Shown one piece after another: positions 6,275 through 36,631 of a stretch of 40,260 nt of DNA. The first letter of the stretch is position 1. The number at the start of each line of letters is the position of its first letter. The notes beneath the pieces are model-generated. The model did not search any database and was not told the origin of the DNA. It saw only the letters and a list, made by a program, of their open reading frames with translations. Made by a program: the position numbers and the translations under genes. This stretch comes from Caldimicrobium sp. GTDB taxonomy: Bacteria > Desulfobacterota > Thermodesulfobacteria > Thermodesulfobacteriales > Thermodesulfobacteriaceae. Where the stretch lies: the NCBI GenBank assembly GCA_009903935.1, contig WYEG01000060.1, positions 1 through 40,260 on the forward strand, in the 5' to 3' direction.

Positions 6275-6299
6275 CTAATAAACTTGGTTGATTTGTCAA
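6272..6299 (-). promoter_or_regulatory. Putative sigma-70 promoter of the efflux operon
   Basis: On the minus strand a perfect TTGACA (-35, at 6294-6299) is followed after 16 bp by TAGAGT (-10, at 6272-6277, four of six consensus positions). The -10 overlaps the palindrome at 6257-6274, giving a simple repression arrangement. The start of transcription would fall near 6265, leaving a leader of about 38 nt. Confidence 0.55.
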
Positions 6300-6304
6300 C
6301 CCCC

Positions 6305-6469
6305 TTGTCCTGCCAAGCATAGCAAGGCATCCCTCGCTTCGCTCGGGACGGCGTCCCTCCTCACTTCGTTAGGGACGGCGCATAGTGATGTCTTCCCGAG
6401 GCGCGTAAGCGCCGAGGGACCCCTCGGCTTACGCCTCGGGGAGACAAAAAAATTAGGCTCGGGGCGATA
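6305..6469 (+). repeat. Modular GC-rich palindromic repeat, copy A
   Basis: This fills most of the 436-base gap between the efflux operon and fliK. It is a chain of short self-complementary modules, for example CCCTCGCTTCGCTCGGGA, GGACGGCGTCC, and CCCGAGG...CCGAGGG followed by CCCCTCGG...CCTCGGGG. The same modules in the same order occur at 15657-15794 and, on the minus strand, at 35847-36010. This copy has an extra repeat of the TTCG-GGGACGGCG module in its middle (about 6360-6385) and a trailing partial unit (GGCTCGGGGCGATA) at its end. It is far more GC-rich than the neighbouring genes. The remainder of the gap holds the TetR operator/promoter on its left and the sigma-54 promoter on its right; 6470-6606 shows nothing else recognisable. 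Confidence 0.85.
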
Positions 6470-6606
6470 TTTTCCACCGTGTCATAAGGAAAAATTTTCC
6501 CAAAAGGAAACTTTGTTCACTTTAGCTTAAGCCTCATTTAGCGAATGGGAGCAAAGCAAACCGTTAAATTTTCTTGTTTAAAAGGTCTTAAACAGTTTTT
6601 ATCAAA

Positions 6607-6623: not shown

Positions 6624-6663
6624 TAAAGCCTTTTGAAGGCTGATGAAAGCAAGGAGGTTTAGG

Positions 6664-8373
6664 ATGAAGATAACCGCTCAAACTGAAGTTAGCCCAAGCA
6701 ACTTCATGATGCAAAACGAAAATGGTCAAGCCTCAATGGACTTCCTTTTTGTCCTCTTTCTTCAGCTTATTCAATCCGCCCTGGATATCCTCAATCCTTC
6801 CGAAGAGCCTAACTCCGATTTAGGCGCAATAAATTCTCAGGATGCAAAATCAAACTATCAAAGGGCTTTAAACTTTATGGAAGATAATCCTTCTCTTAAA
6901 GAAACCTTCAATCAAGCAATTAGCTTCGTATTTTTGCTTTCTCAATTCGTCTCTTATAAAGAAGTAAACTCGCAAGATGTGCCGTTAAGCATAAAATTTA
7001 ATAATACAGCTAATAAAGAACTAATTAAATTAAATTTGATAAACATTGGATCAAAGGACCAAAAGTTTTCTTTGGATTCCAAAGCTCTATTTTTGCCCAA
7101 CCAAGCTTCAAGCTTGACCAATGATAAAGGCCTTGAACCCGTTAAACCTATACTACTATCTAATAATACGCTGCAGAGCCTATCCGCATTCATAAGCAAA
7201 GCTTGGAAGGAGTATAAAGCTCTGCTAAAAGACAAGGGTGAGGAAATAAATATAAACATGCAGTCTTTAAAAAAAGAATTTTTTGTTAAGCTCAACACTG
7301 ACTGGGAAAGCTTGCCTGAAGAGGCAAAAGCATATCTAAAGGAAGTTTTAGCCAATTCAATTTTTAATCAAAATAAAATGGGTAATAATGTCTATCCTAA
7401 TCTAAAAAATTATTTAAATAGTAATGAAATAAATGAAATGCAAGGTTTGTCTGTAGAAAAGAAAACAGGAGTTAACGAAATTCTCGAAGTTCATACTAAT
7501 AATAGTAATGAAAAGCAAGATTTGTCTCCAGAAAAGAAAACAGGGGTTAACAAAATTCTCGAAGTTCATACTAATAATAGTAATGAAATGCAAGGTTTGT
7601 CTGCAGAAAAGAAAATAGGAGTAGCTGAAGTTTTGGAGGTTAATACTACTAAAAAAGATGAAATACTTGGAAAGAATACACATGATATACCGCAGTGGAA
7701 TAAAAAGTTAGGTGACAATAGCCTTCAGGAAGTAAAAACTATATTAACAAGTGTTTTAGAAAGAGAAGAGGAGCATAAAGAAGTAAAAAGCTTTTTAAAA
7801 GAATTGGTTGAAAAATCCGAGCCTTTTCAATCAAAAAGCTCGGAAAGAGACAACCTTTTTGTGCTACCTACTCAAACCGAAGAGGGTCCCTCCACCTTAG
7901 GTATGCATAGTGCTGACAAAACTCAAGCACGGTCCTTATTACCACATAAACTAACCCTACGGGAACTTCCAGATTTTGTGCGTAACCTTGTGCTTGAGGT
8001 CCACCCTCAAGGAGAGCAGAAAGCAAGGCTTGAGCTTTTTCCTCCTGAGCTTGGACGCTTAGACATTGAAGTTCGGGTGGAAAACGGAGAAGTTTCAGTG
8101 GTTGGCAAGCTCGAAAATCCTCAAGCCTATCAAGATATCTTGAAGGAGGCTCCGGTAATCAAGACCCATCTTGAGGAGCTTGGGTTAAAAGTAAAAGAGC
8201 TAGTCTTTACCCTTACCTCAGGTGATGCGAACCTCCCCTACCATGGAGATAGACAACCAAAGGAGAATAAAGACGGACTATCAGTAAAAAACAACAGTAG
8301 GCTTCTAACTCAAGGGCTCCCCAAGGAGGAAACTTTGGTCAACGCTAAAGGTAGATATTACTACATTGTTTAA
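6664..8373 (+). CDS. fliK: Flagellar hook-length control protein FliK
   Basis: Secreted molecular ruler that sets hook length and triggers the export specificity switch. The conserved C-terminal Flg_hook domain lies at about residues 440-520, with the core pattern ARLELFPPELGRLDIEVRV, then GEVSVVGKL and a helical end (HLEELGLKVKELVFTL). The N-terminal three quarters are AT-rich, Asn/Lys-rich and unconserved, as expected of a FliK ruler region, and contain three tandem 25-residue units (residues 257-331). An ATG at 6643 is in frame, but the ATG at 6664 sits six bases after AAGGAGG and gives 569 residues, so it is preferred. The gene is first behind the sigma-54 promoter and is followed 14 bases later by flgD. 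Base composition of the 5' two thirds is clearly more AT-rich than in the neighbours. Confidence 0.9.
   Translation: MKITAQTEVSPSNFMMQNENGQASMDFLFVLFLQLIQSALDILNPSEEPNSDLGAINSQDAKSNYQRALNFMEDNPSLKETFNQAISFVFLLSQFVSYKEVNSQDVPLSIKFNNTANKELIKLNLINIGSKDQKFSLDSKALFLPNQASSLTNDKGLEPVKPILLSNNTLQSLSAFISKAWKEYKALLKDKGEEININMQSLKKEFFVKLNTDWESLPEEAKAYLKEVLANSIFNQNKMGNNVYPNLKNYLNSNEINEMQGLSVEKKTGVNEILEVHTNNSNEKQDLSPEKKTGVNKILEVHTNNSNEMQGLSAEKKIGVAEVLEVNTTKKDEILGKNTHDIPQWNKKLGDNSLQEVKTILTSVLEREEEHKEVKSFLKELVEKSEPFQSKSSERDNLFVLPTQTEEGPSTLGMHSADKTQARSLLPHKLTLRELPDFVRNLVLEVHPQGEQKARLELFPPELGRLDIEVRVENGEVSVVGKLENPQAYQDILKEAPVIKTHLEELGLKVKELVFTLTSGDANLPYHGDRQPKENKDGLSVKNNSRLLTQGLPKEETLVNAKGRYYYIV
7432..7656 (+). 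repeat. Three tandem 75-bp repeats inside fliK
   Basis: Units run 7432-7506, 7507-7581 and 7582-7656, each encoding 25 residues with the pattern NEMQGLS.EKKTGV.E.LEVHTNNS. Units 1 and 2 are nearly identical in DNA; unit 3 has diverged in its second half. The unit is a multiple of three, so gain or loss would keep the frame and change the length of the FliK ruler region. Confidence 0.95.
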
Positions 8374-15618: not shown

Positions 15619-15656
15619 ATTTTTCTTGGGCTGTTTCAGAAAAGGTTCCCCTACTT

Positions 15657-15794
15657 TGTTCCTGCCGAGCGATAACGAGGCATCCCTCGCATCATTCGGG
15701 ACGGCGTCCCGGGATGTCTTCCCGAGGCACGCAAGCGCCGAGGGACCCCTCGGCTGACGCCTCGGGGCGACAAAAAGGAGGGCTCGAGGTGACA
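15657..15794 (+). repeat. Modular GC-rich palindromic repeat, copy B
   Basis: Same family and orientation as 6305-6469. It runs through the module starting GCCGAGCGATAACGAGGC, then the CCCTCG...CGGGA arm, the GGACGGCGTCC palindrome, and the CCCGAGGC...CCGAGGG and CCCCTCGG...CCTCGGGG hairpins, with a trailing GGCTCGAGGTGACA unit. It occupies the gap between the end of the DVU0298-type gene and the yceD promoter. No gene is supported in this gap; an open plus-strand frame there is made of repeat sequence. Confidence 0.85.
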
Positions 15795-28568: not shown

Positions 28569-28678
28569 GTAGGGATCCTTCGCTTCCGCTCAGGATGACA
28601 GACAGAGGGTCCCTCGGTTTCGCTCGGGATGACAGATAGAGAGGCTTGGGATGACAGATAGAGGGGCTCGGGATGCAA
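28569..28678 (-). repeat. Tandem TGTCATCC-type repeat at the 5' end of folK
   Basis: On the minus strand, units of the form TGTCATCC(C/T)(A/G)AGC recur four times with spacers such as CTCTATC, and two carry palindromic arms (GAGCGAAACCGAGGGACC; GAGCGGAAGCGAAGGATCC). The last arm matches the TCATCCTGAGCG...GAAGGATC repeat style found in many bacterial genomes. It shares the TGTCATCCCGAGCG module with copies A-C but not their full order. It fills the space between dapL and folK and is in frame with folK. Confidence 0.8.
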
Positions 28679-31009: not shown

Positions 31010-33421
31010 TTAAAGTTTTTCTGTAAATTCTTTATCAATCTTTATGACCTTAGTCACACGCTCACCCGGGAGAAGGGTAATCATCCTTGAGCCTTGCGTG
31101 CTTCGGGCAAGGGTGGGTATTTCTTCAGAGGAGATGCGTATCGCCTTGCCCGAAGAGGAAAAGATGATAACATCTTCGCTCCCCTCAAGGAATAAGGCCG
31201 AAGCTAAAGGACCAGTTTTAGCAGAAAGCTTGTGAAGGCTAATCCCTAAGCCACCCCGTCTCTGTATCCTAAACTCCGTTATATCCGTCTTCTTACCAAA
31301 GCCTCCCTCGGTGATGGTAAAAAGATAGCCCTTCGGTTTAGTTTCCACCATGGCTATAACTTCATCCCTTTCCTCAAGGCGGATGCCTATCACTCCCTCT
31401 GATTTTCTACCCATCGGTCTTAGTTCCGAGGTCTCAAAATGCAAGGATTGACCGTTCTTTGTGGCAAGAAGAACCGTGCCTTCTTTTTCAAGGCTCAGAA
31501 CAGAGCGGAGCTTATCACCCTTCTTTATGATTATCGCCGTGCTTCCTGCTTTACGCAAGTTTTGAAAATCCTTGGCTAAAACCTTTTTCACATTTCCCTG
31601 AGCGGTGGCCATGAGGATAAACCCTTCCTCTCTTAGAGGTAAAAGGGCAACCGGTGCGCCTTCAAAGTTCGGTAGATAATTCCTCAAGTGGTTCCCTTTA
31701 GCTTGTTTGGTTGAGGTTGGAACATCCTTAAGCGAGAGGGGATAAACTCTTCCCTCCTCCGTGAAGATAAGAACCGTATCATCAGAAAAGGCATAGATAG
31801 CTTGGCTTATCCTTTCTTCCCCGTAGACGGCAAGCGCACCTTTGCCACCCCTTTTCTGAGTAGAAAACTCATCAAGGCTAATCTTCCGTATAAACCCCTC
31901 TTCGCTTAAAAGGACTAAAACCGGAGCCTGAGGGGGCGCCTCTAAAATAACCTCAGTTTCTTCCTCCTCTATGATCTGCGTCCTTCTCTCATCGGCAAAA
32001 TCTTCTTTAAGTTTTCTTAGCTCCTCCTCGATAGTAGCAATAAGAGTTGGTTCGTGAGTAAGGATCTTTTCATACCGCGCGATAGCTTTCTTTAATTCCT
32101 CATACTCAAGAAGGATCTTTTCCCGCTCGAGGGCTGTAAGCCTCTGAAGCCTAAGGTTTAATATCTCCTGAGCCTGAACTTCGGTGAAGTTAAACCGGGC
32201 AATAAGCCTATCCTTTGCCGTCTTCGGGGTATCCGAGGTCTTGATAAGCTCTATTATCTCGTCAAGATGCTCAAGGGCTTTAAGGAAACCTTCAAGGATG
32301 TGAGCTCTTTCTTTGGCTTTTCTTAGCTCATACTGAGTTCTGCGGATGACAACCGTCCTTCTCCAGTTGAGAAAATGCTGAAGAAGGTCCTTAAGGGTTA
32401 AGACCTCGGGTCTTCCGTTAACCAGGGCAAGGAGGATGATGCCAAAGTTTGTCTCAAGCGGCGTATGGGCAAAGATCTCTTTGGCTACAAGATGGGGGGC
32501 GTTTGCCCATTCTTTCTTAAGCTCTACAACTACCCTTATGCCATGCCTATCCGATTCGTCGCGAACCTCGGTCGCGGCTTCAAGCTTTTTTTCTTTGATA
32601 AGCCTAGCGATCTTTTCCACCACACTTGCCTTGTTTACCTGATAGGGTATCTCGGTAAAAACGAGCTTTACTTTGTTTTTTTCCGTCTCCACATGATACT
32701 TAGCTCGAAGCTTGATCGTTCCCTTTCCGGTCTCATAGGCAGAAAGTATTGCCGACCTACCTACAATATAGGCTCCAGTTGGAAAATCTGGTCCCTTAAT
32801 GTGCTCCATGAGCTCTTCTGTCGTAAGGTCAGGATTGCGAAGGAGGGCTAAGCAGGCTGATAGCACCTCCCCAAGGTTGTGGGGCGGAATGGATGTTGCC
32901 ATACCTACGGCAATGCCAGAAGCTCCGTTCACAAGAAGATTTGGTAGCTTTGAAGGTAGGACCACCGGCTCTTTTAGCGTGTTGTCGTAGTTTGGGACAA
33001 ACTCTACCGTTTCTTTCTCAAGGTCAGCAAGCATCTCATGAGCGATCCTTGTTAGCCTCACCTCGGTATAGCGCATGGCTGCAGGGGGGTCGCCGTCGAT
33101 GGAGCCAAAATTACCCTGTCCATCAACCAAGGGATACCGCATGGTAAAATCTTGAGCCATCCGGACCAAAGCCTCATACACAGGCATGTCACCATGGGGG
33201 TGATACTTACCGATGACATCTCCTACGATCCTTGCGCTCTTCTTGAAGGGCTTATTCCATTCGTTTCCTGCCTCATACATGGCGTAAAGGATCCGCCTCT
33301 GAACGGGCTTTAGCCCATCCCGCACATCAGGAAGGGCTCGCCCAACGATTACGCTCATCGCATAATCTAAGTAGCTCTCTTTAAGCTCCTCTTCTAAAGG
33401 AACTTCTATGATTTCTCCCAT
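31010..33421 (-). CDS. gyrA: DNA gyrase subunit A
   Basis: Breakage-reunion subunit of the type II topoisomerase that introduces negative supercoils. Start [20 protein letters not shown], active-site Tyr118 ([14 protein letters not shown]), and a C-terminal beta-pinwheel with the GyrA box as QKRGGKG (canonical QRRGGKG), which supports gyrase rather than topoisomerase IV. In the quinolone-resistance region the usual Ser (E. coli Ser83) is Met79 and the Asp87 equivalent is Glu83 ([16 protein letters not shown]). 803 residues, normal. GGGGAG precedes the ATG, inside the last codons of plsC (16-base overlap). Confidence 0.95.
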
Positions 33422-34140
33422 GGCTTTTCTCCCCTTTTAAAATATTCTAAACCCCGACTAATCTCTTCTCGCACCATCTGGGAAAGCTTTTCTTTATCCC
33501 TAAGGGTCATTCCCTTTGTTTCTATCAAACTTCCCACATAAACAAAAACCTCTCTTTTATTTAAGTGGAACCAGAGGCTTCCCTTAGGTAGAATGTCTTT
33601 TGTGCCATAGATAGCTAAGGGGCAGACAGGAACCTGAGCCTTAAGGGGCACTAACATTCCCCCCTTCTTGAAAGGTAAAAGCTCCCCGGTTCGGCTTCTT
33701 GTCCCCTCAGGAAAGATGACTAAGCTCACTCCGGATTGTAAGGCAGAAACACAGGCTAAAAGGCTTCGCAAGCCTTCCTTCGGGTCTTCCCTTTCTACGG
33801 GAATGTAGCCAAGAGCTGATATACCCCAGCCAAAAAAGGGGATCTTGAAGAGGCTCTTTTTGGCTAAAAACCTGATGTCATAATCCTTTAACAGGACTTC
33901 AAGAACGGGGATATCAAGTTGGCTCTGGTGATTGCTCATGAAGACATACCTTTGACCCTTTGGAGGAAGAGAGTTCCCAAGCACAACTATCCTTATCCCT
34001 AAGACCTTAAGCAACCATTCACACCAAAGCCTTGCCCAAAACTTTTTCCGTGTAAGGATAGCAAGAAGACCCATAACAGGGACGCTAATCATTACATAAA
34101 GCCAGACTAAAAGATTACGCAAGACCTCTTGGATAAGCAT
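33406..34140 (-). CDS. plsC: 1-acyl-sn-glycerol-3-phosphate acyltransferase (PlsC family)
   Basis: Membrane enzyme that acylates lysophosphatidic acid to phosphatidic acid. An N-terminal hydrophobic segment ([20 protein letters not shown], about residues 10-29) anchors it. Acyltransferase motif I NHQSQLD (HX4D) is near residue 70 and motif [22 protein letters not shown] near 145. 244 residues, normal for the family. It starts 3 bases after the trpG stop without a visible Shine-Dalgarno, suggesting translational coupling, and overlaps gyrA by 16 bases. Confidence 0.93.
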
Positions 34141-34807: not shown

Positions 34808-36631
34808 TCAATCAAAATAACCCGAAGAAAAGAGCTCCAAAGCCTTCTCCAAAGCCTTAGCCTTATTTATCGTCTCCTCATACTCCTTTTTGGGATTAGA
34901 ATCGGCAACGATCCCAGCCCCAGCCTGAAGATATAATCTTCCTCCCTTCTGAAAGAAGGTCCTGATGGTTATACAAAAATCCATAGTATGGTTGAAGCCA
35001 AAGTAGCCAACCGCGCCTGCGTATGGACCCCTCTCCTTCTCTTCAAGCTCGGTAATTATCTCCATTGCTCTGACCTTAGGGGCACCGCTTACCGTCCCAG
35101 CAGGAAAGCAGGCTCTAAAAAGGCTAAACATATCTTCCCCGTCCTTTAGCCTTCCCTTAACCCCTGATACTAAGTGCATCACATGGGAGTATCGTTCAAC
35201 CACCATAAGGTCGTAAACCTGCACCGAGCCATACTCGCAAACTCGCCCAAGGTCATTCCTCCCAAGGTCAACGAGCATGATATGCTCAGCAAGCTCCTTT
35301 TCATCGTTCTTTAGCTCTTCCTCAAGCATCAGGTCTTCTTCCTCGGTCGGACCCCTCCTCCTTGTCCCAGCAATAGGTCTTGTCTCTACCCTTTTCCCTT
35401 CAGCCCGAACGAGTATCTCTGGGGAAGAGCCAATAAGCACCTCATCCTTAAACCTAAGGTAAAACATGTAAGGAGAAGGATTTATCTTCCTAAGAGCCCG
35501 ATATAAATACAAGCCTAAATGTGGATTTTTGAGGATCTCATCCTCAACATAAAACCTCTGAGAGAGAACAACCTGAATTATGTCCCCTTTTTCAATGTAT
35601 TTTTTTGCCCTTTGGACCATTTTCTCAAAAGACGCTCTCTCCATCTCCGGAGTCAGCTTAATAACCCCCTGCAAACGGGGTGGGCTAACCTTAGCGCTCC
35701 TAAGCCTCTCCCTTAACGCTAAAAGCTCATCCCTTGCTTTAGAGTAAAGCTTCTCCAAATCCGCCCTTTCTTTATCAACAAAACTACTTCTTTCTCTATC
35801 CTCCCGACCCTCAACCTCTTTATCAACCCAGGCTCTCTTTCCTATGTCACCCCGAGCGCCCCTTTCATTGTCACCCCGAGCGCCCCTTTCATTGTCACCC
35901 CGAGCGCCAGCGAGGGGTCCCTCGGCACTTGCGTGCCTCGGGATGACATCCCGGGACGCCGTCCCGAACGAAGTGAGGGATGCCTCGCTATCGCTCGGCA
36001 CGACAAGGTGGAGGTTGGCACCCCGAGCCGCAAGGTCAGGGGTCTCCTCATAAGCCCCAGCATTACCCTCATCCCTTGAGCCAAGGTTAGTGAGAAAACT
36101 CTCTTCGGTTGAAACAAGAGCAATCAGCTTATAAGTATGCTTAAGCCTATCGTAGACTATAAGCTTCCTTGGGAGGACAAAGTATAGGTCATGAAAGCCA
36201 AGGACTGGCTCCCCCCGCTTTACCCTTTTTTCAAAAAAAGATACCATCTCATAGGATACATACCCAACAAGCCCAGAAAAAAACCTTGGCAAAGGCAAAT
36301 TTTCCGGAACTCTAAAGCCTTCCCAAAGCCTTTTTAACTCCAAAAAGGGGTCTTCGCAGGAAAATTCTTTTTTAACTTCCCCTTCAAGATAGACCTTTTT
36401 GCCCTTGGCTCGAAAGATAATAGAAGGCTCAAACCCGATGAAAGAATAGCGAGCCCATTTTTCAGGACCTTCCATGCTTTCAAGAAGAAAAATATGCGTC
36501 TCATCATCAAACACCTTGTAAAGAAGAGATATCGGCGTCTCAAGGTCAGCAGGCATCTCAAGATATAAGGGAATAAGGTTGTAATTTTGAGAAAGCTTCA
36601 CAAACTCATCAAAGGAAGGACTGATGTTCAT
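34808..36631 (-). CDS. trpE: Anthranilate synthase component I with a repeat-derived linker
   Basis: Makes anthranilate from chorismate with TrpG, the first step of tryptophan synthesis. The N-terminal domain (residues 1-175) carries the tryptophan-feedback motif LLES (49-52) and [10 protein letters not shown]. The chorismate-binding domain (about 290-607) is intact: [70 protein letters not shown] and [14 protein letters not shown]. At 607 residues it is about 100 longer than usual. The excess is a low-complexity linker (about 178-288) made mostly of the palindromic repeat at 35847-36010, in frame and without stops, including the eight-residue tandem GARGDNER. Both catalytic halves look functional. 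It starts 4 bases after the hisS stop. Confidence 0.95.
35847..36010 (-). repeat. Modular palindromic repeat, copy C, inside trpE
   Basis: The reverse complement has the same modules in the same order as the copies at 6305 and 15657: GCCGAGCGATAGCGAGGC, CCCTCACTTCGTTCGGGA, GACGGCGTCCCGGGATGTC, then CCCGAGGC...GCCGAGGG, then CCCCTCG...CTCGGGG. It ends in a 24-bp tandem unit present twice exactly plus a partial third (35847-35870, 35871-35894, 35895-35908). It lies in the trpE coding direction and encodes residues about 208-262 with no stop. A decayed fragment of the same style seems to continue at about 36015-36095. Confidence 0.9.

Follow-up and report, generated by a model that had tools for sequence, protein, structure and literature searches.

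Palindromic repeats that lie in frame inside protein-coding genes are known from the accounts in PMC2229807 and PMC10969869, where they include the Rickettsia palindromic elements (RPEs), ERIC and repeats of M. jannaschii. RPEs such as RPE-1, RPE-4 and RPE-6 are described there as dispersed palindromes that occur between genes as well as in frame within unrelated, conserved genes, with no known transposase (Ogata et al. 2000/2002, reviewed in PMC2229807, PMC10969869). An archaeal thermophile also has a palindrome fused into protein genes, and this repeat is set beside the present one by its description (2005 study cited in PMC2229807).

REPs constitute another group of such repeats, and the account in PMC3733652 reports intragenic GTAG and CGTC REPs in Opitutus, Thioalkalivibrio, Rickettsia and others, including cases in uvrA, uvrB and pseudouridine synthases. 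GTAG REPs and REPINs are short tagged hairpins, also described as paired units, that are moved by RAYTs (PMC3733652, PMC3116915, as far as these describe them). The CGTC-tagged superfamily includes dRS3 of Neisseria as well as RPE-4 and RPE-6, which in R. conorii are CGTC/TGTC-tagged REPs; its members are characterized in the same account by an unpaired CGTC/TGTC tag, a covarying stem of 8–9 bp with A-T almost invariable at positions one and two, a loop of 4–5 nt, a short 3' tail, a predominance of head-to-head dimers, and intragenic copies without a dedicated transposase (PMC3733652). MITEs such as ERIC, YPAL, RUP and Correia are a further class, and the target duplications of YPAL are given as 3 to 26 bp (in the part of PMC2229807 that treats them).

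In-frame coding REPs and RPEs are thus already published from Rickettsia, Opitutus and Thioalkalivibrio, and the case described here, a repeat inside trpE of Caldimicrobium sp., is a variant of a known phenomenon. Like RPEs, it is a dispersed palindrome with intergenic and in-frame genic copies in unrelated genes; unlike them, it appears to have another sequence, belongs to another phylum, uses several frames, forms composite copies with tandem arrays, is partly MITE-borne and is flanked by long direct repeats at some sites. The first-pass annotation had likened it to RPEs in an unrelated thermophile and with a different sequence. The host is as it stated and the sequence appears to be so too. 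The comparison is a reasonable one, and the kinship could be closer than was supposed; RPE-4, RPE-6 and the present unit share CGTC/TGTC tagging.

The insertion in trpE

The window, a stretch of 40,260 nt from contig WYEG01000060.1, contains trpE at 34808–36631 on the minus strand, which encodes anthranilate synthase component I of 607 aa with a frame open throughout and a TIGR00564 match above the cut-off. Its Pfam domains span residues 29–167 (N-domain) and 332–590 (chorismate_bind), and a Foldseek search with the TrpE model returned TrpE/PabB structures. In a MAFFT alignment with orthologues, an insertion of ~110 residues (~179–288; ~35768–36097, minus strand) lies between the two domains; it is absent from 29 of 29 relatives of the same family and order, in which the trpE open frames are mostly ~496–523 aa long. 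A stop-free, in-frame repeat in the inter-domain linker had been proposed from the letters of the DNA, and both the frame and the position held, while its extent of 35847–36100 and about 100 residues had to be corrected to the values given above. The catalytic and feedback motifs are intact, as had also been claimed: all columns invariant across 46 TrpE proteins are present and lie outside the insert, both Pfam domains are there, and the AlphaFold core is mostly above pLDDT 90, with residues 187–271 below 50. The insert peptide is probably a disordered and neutral linker.

The insert has a recognisable repeat-derived core, a composite palindrome at 35816–36054 (minus strand, from merged blastn matches), which as a whole folds better than all its shuffles (z of −3.5 as DNA and −4.2 as RNA). 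Within it are two 24-nt half units in tandem (TGTCACCCCGAGCGCCCCTTTCAT, 35845–35892, plus strand), a hairpin unit with a CCCC/GGGG stem and the GNNA loop GCCA (TGTCACCCCGAGCGCCAGCGAGGGG, 35893–35917, plus strand) and a second one with a TGCC/GGCA stem and the GNNA loop GATA (TGTCGTGCCGAGCGATAGCGAGGCA, 35981–36005, minus strand). The side of the C-terminal domain consists of decayed tandem units similar to GGGCTCGGGATGACAAAGAAA (35768–35844, minus strand), with a local alignment score of 26 against 9.0 ± 2.2 for shuffles, reached by 0 of 2000, for a unit picked by eye, and p ~0.001 for two other unit forms. The frame is kept in the tandem array because units of 24 nt are a multiple of three, as against ~21 nt in many other arrays of the genome. 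A target duplication was sought at the trpE flanks and none was found (p ~0.3).

The repeat family and its hairpin unit

The trpE insert is built from a dispersed palindromic repeat that forms ~90 clusters in the 1.56-Mb genome. The trpE core has at least 76 matches in its own genome, with 40 of 120 candidates scored, far above chance, and the core CGAGGGACCCCTCG has 47 exact sites. Merging the stretches fetched around all sites gave 94 clusters, a few of which are chance matches, and this list, drawn from stretches around repeat sites in a 68-contig draft, may be incomplete. The control for the pattern GAGCGNAGCGAR was invalid since the motif is identical when read backwards. An Rfam search of the window gave no match, and a literature search by motif letters returned unrelated papers only.

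Likeness to two intergenic copies of the window had been noted near 6305 and 15657 and was confirmed, with inverted repeats that pair over 93 nt (92% alike) and over 68 nt (85% alike). The former copy spans 6297–6483; the latter (15648–15794) shares 88% identity with the trpE core across 135 nt and has a degenerate MITE end, GGGCTGTTTCAGAAAAGG, directly before it. A fourth copy, overlooked earlier, consists of single units in tandem at 28571–28675 and joins the folK reading frame in phase at its 5' end; downstream of the copy, folK has no obvious ATG start. The window also has three tandem 75-nt repeats, 89–78% alike, at 7418–7663 within an open reading frame (6643–8373).

The elementary unit is a hairpin of ~28 nt, TGTC-[5-nt covarying stem]-GA-GC-G(N)NA-GC-GA-[stem], and 44 distinct units, some of them from four relatives, align as TGTC-N5-GAGCG-N-AGCGA-N5. 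The TGTC tag stays unpaired and is followed by a covarying stem of 5 bp, tandem G.A and, innermost, GC pairs that carry a GNA or GNNA loop. The outer stem occurs as CCCC/GGGG, TCCC/GGGA, TGCC/GGCA, TTTC/GAAA and TTCT/AGAA. The stem is paired in 93.2% of cells (81.6% in shuffles and 14–53% in slid controls), with a covariation score of 0.457 compared with 0.225 for shuffles, 0 of 500 of which reached it, while the inner pairs are invariant by construction because the units were chosen by their loop. In 38 distinct units of this genome the tag is conserved as T1 in 30, G2 in 37, T3 in 33 and C4 in 35. Stem pair 1 is A-T in 22 and pair 2 T-A in 32 of the 44 units, with C-G instead in many of this genome's own. 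Single units have modest predicted energies, for the most part no better than those of shuffles. A GNA or GNNA loop on two G-C pairs is known as an extraordinarily stable DNA mini-hairpin, and GCGAAGC melts near 78 °C (PMC4686876); the inner part of the unit, GC-GNA-GC or GC-GNNA-GC, is this motif, and its stability may matter in the cell.

The tag resembles that of the CGTC/TGTC REP superfamily, and the covarying stem and the lack of a transposase also fit, as do the short 3' tail and the intragenic copies. Many units have A-T pairs at the first stem positions, as against an almost invariable A-T in the superfamily. The unit has five Watson-Crick pairs, two G.A, two G-C and a loop of 3–4 nt, and membership is withheld because these stem and loop sizes do not fit those given for the superfamily. 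Facing pairs and tandem arrays of units are present in this genome; clusters and tandem arrays are common here but rare in CGTC REPs as PMC3733652 describes them, and Thermodesulfobacteriaceae are absent from the hosts that this account names. The dRS3 of Neisseria (ATTCCC-N8-GGGAAT) is similar in form. GTAG REPs and REPINs share the short tagged hairpin, the paired units and intragenic cases in uvrA and pseudouridine synthases (in the descriptions of PMC3733652 and PMC3116915), but the tag here is TGTC and the draft has no Y1 transposase.

The unit pattern, which leaves out units with a GNNA loop, was searched for in relatives and matched nowhere in 29 further family genomes, against 1–37 times in eight genomes from the order and phylum and 0 times in controls. 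About 28 loci sampled in four unit-bearing relatives had no copy inside a recognisably conserved gene. In relatives of other families (L253–L282), an AT-richer unit, TGTCATTCTGAGCGCAGCGAAGAATCTC, is intergenic and often forms inverted pairs ~40 nt apart. Among plasmids searched, the unit turned up in four, all of them cyanobacterial. The search for a REP-associated transposase found no RAYT/Y1_Tnp (PF01797) in the draft genome itself, nor any DDE_Tnp_1 (PF01609); IS elements often fall in assembly gaps.

Genic copies, MITE-borne copies and flanking repeats

At least 14 genes, trpE included, have a copy in an open frame. The site is empty in all relatives compared for trpE (29/29), ispE (L153, 27/27), nadD (L182, 29/29) and a ubiE/menG-type methyltransferase (L148, 19/19), and the copy forms an extra segment relative to solved homologue structures in uvrA (L155), aroD (L251) and murI (L284). 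The genic call rests on the repeat sequence itself in a hyuA-like gene (L142) and tldD (L162), and likewise in the putative mutS (L182), trxB (L246), aroE (L251), rsuA-type pseudouridine synthase (L252) and MBL-fold hydrolase (L290), all five named by eye from sequence motifs; in aroE and the hydrolase the C-terminus alone is changed. The aroD, murI and ubiE/menG-type genes were named by PDB search, and trpE, ispE, nadD, uvrA, tldD and the hyuA-like gene with NCBIfam. Predicted tryptic peptides from the inserts include VEAYWGSSSSSSVIPSVAR for NadD and IALGLDQGVPR for UbiE. Three insert peptides matched no NCBIfam family at E ≤ 10, in a library that may not contain RPE models.

Three of the 14 genes, trpE, aroD and aroE, belong to aromatic amino acid synthesis, and the latter two are neighbours. 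The DNA repair genes uvrA and mutS and the rsuA-type gene belong to classes that match REP-tagged genes elsewhere (as listed in PMC3733652). Serine-rich stretches (SSSS or similar) stand immediately before the inserts in ispE, nadD and tldD and are possibly filler DNA from the insertion. Repeats in dnaX (L168, 960–990) and rpoC (L286) were rejected, the former as low-complexity chance and the latter as chance, and those before nadB (L149) and a HAD-like gene (L179) were not counted as genic because the likely true starts sit downstream.

Both orientations are represented among the genic units, with all three phases for plus and two or more for minus, and of the six frames of an elementary unit four to five contain no stop. 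These five or more combinations of orientation and phase indicate that there is no single selected frame, and the suggestion in the first-pass annotation that the element selects one open frame did not hold up. Its second suggestion, that the element lands in protein linkers, stands as regards position, the genic copies lying in loops, linkers or C-termini, but not as regards targeting; most clusters are intergenic, and survival fits better. The share of in-frame insertions is incalculable because frameshifted ones would look intergenic.

The copies exist in two forms, 41 clusters with MITE ends and 53 without, and all 14 genic clusters are among the latter. The ends, GGCTGTTCAAAAA, are present on both sides in 31 clusters and on one side in 10, the two ends reading approximately GAGGCTGTACTAAAAATGTTTTTGTGCAAGCCC and GGGGCTGTTCAAAAAAGTCCCC, and several clusters have target duplications of ~9–12 bp such as AGAAATTTCAA (L147) and GGTTTATTCGA (L187). 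Terminal inverted repeats and target duplications are shared with the MITEs named above, but here hairpin units make up the MITE interior and the same units also occur MITE-less and in genes. Ends are found in 41 of 80 non-genic and 0 of 14 genic clusters (Fisher p = 0.0002), a bias part of which selection may explain because full MITEs have few open frames (none in five and one in seven of 13, and at most two). At L145 (5112–5545; contig C4 ~33111–33544), a MITE stands between two copies of a ~70-nt stretch, 51 nt of which are perfectly identical when aligned, far exceeding the duplications of other MITEs. At L160 (2440–2800) and L174 (2280–2700), a full MITE is preceded by a lone MITE end that has an identical target sequence, which would suit the loss of an earlier copy and reuse of its site; the long direct repeats there were rejected as long target duplications because they include remnants of the neighbouring MITE end.

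Four single-unit insertions are flanked by direct repeats of 21–30 nt, namely ubiE (30 nt, 28 identical), which is the clearest, the end of an mrdA-type gene (L287, 27 nt), L247 (21 nt) and aroE (24 nt). Against a null in which each left flank is combined with right flanks taken from different clusters, ubiE, L287 and L247 reach p ≤ 0.001 and aroE p ~0.02, with ~90 tests made. In ubiE, the 66 nt gained correspond to one 29-nt duplicate and a 37-nt insert, exactly 22 codons, and exactly this segment is missing in 19 of 19 relatives. A clear target duplication is absent from most genic copies. The variable length speaks against a fixed-stagger transposase, though four cases are few. Cas1-Cas2-like integration was considered for the ~30-nt duplications, but the same unit was inserted every time.

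Origin and meaning of the repeat

The trpE insert is likely to be a copy of a REP-like, selfish family of ~28-nt hairpins that has spread both free and MITE-borne, and of which the genic survivors are the frame-keeping copies in tolerant sites. Units would travel free, singly or in groups, and also inside an IS-type MITE that carries them; the free ones would insert widely, selection would remove most genic insertions, and those that keep the frame in tolerant loops, linkers and termini would survive, which would be easy because the unit is nearly stop-free. For trpE, we infer that one or more units may have entered the inter-domain linker and then been amplified into the composite palindrome and the 24-nt in-frame tandem array, the edge of which would be decaying, and mobility may have come from an enzyme or from hairpin-dependent template switching.

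The units could instead be REPs moved by the Y1 (RAYT/IS200-type) transposase of a donor lineage, since lost or unassembled here, which we consider possible at perhaps one chance in a few. The tag-plus-hairpin layout is that of REPs, and Y1_Tnp is found in seven of eight unit-bearing relatives against 21 of 51 others (59 relatives, Fisher p = 0.02, counted genome by genome whatever the distance of Y1 from a unit). It is absent from this draft, and four units are flanked by 21–30-nt duplications, whereas duplication of target DNA is not known from IS200/IS605 transposition. That CGTC-type REPs are described without a dedicated transposase also argues against it (PMC3733652, in the passages on this type).

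Somewhat more tentative is the suggestion that this unit represents the heat-stable mini-hairpin (GCGNAGC or GCGNNAGC) in nature and multiplies without a dedicated transposase. Its folded single strand would be copied by template switching into gaps or staggered breaks, with variable duplications (21–30 nt, and ~70 nt at one MITE), and it would have become MITE cargo later.

It is rather unlikely that all copies are MITEs inserted in trans by an IS transposase and that the genic ones lost their ends later. This would suit the 31 clusters with both GGCTGTTCAAAAA ends, the ~9–12-bp duplications of several of them and the 88% identity of the trpE core to the core at 15660, and selection could have produced part of the end bias, five of 13 full MITEs being frameless and seven single-frame; against it are the lack of ends on all 14 genic copies when 41 of 80 others have them, the presence among the genic copies of several lone ~30-nt units that have no MITE core, and the 30-nt duplication in ubiE, which is unlike the MITE type.

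An adaptive linker, selected for feedback or partner binding for example, is very improbable. The insert sits exactly at the domain boundary and has kept its frame even in the decayed part, but it is found in no relative, is predicted to be disordered, and the same repeat lies in 13 unrelated genes in differing frames and orientations. An assembly or binning artefact, which the 68-contig draft and several repeats near contig ends might suggest, is scarcely credible given 14 independent genes that run uninterrupted through the repeats, gene-specific flanks and decayed copies.

Coding palindromes tend to be treated as peculiar to Rickettsia, though coding REPs have also been described from several other bacteria. 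The present case connects a TGTC-tagged hairpin that is widespread as a repeat with the GNA/GNNA mini-hairpin of DNA chemistry, and annotators should note that in conserved genes such repeats can belong to the actual protein. This small free-living thermophile, in which 14 or more genes are decorated and a few duplications are still readable, and whose family relatives gave no match to the unit pattern, offers a system for tests of mechanism.
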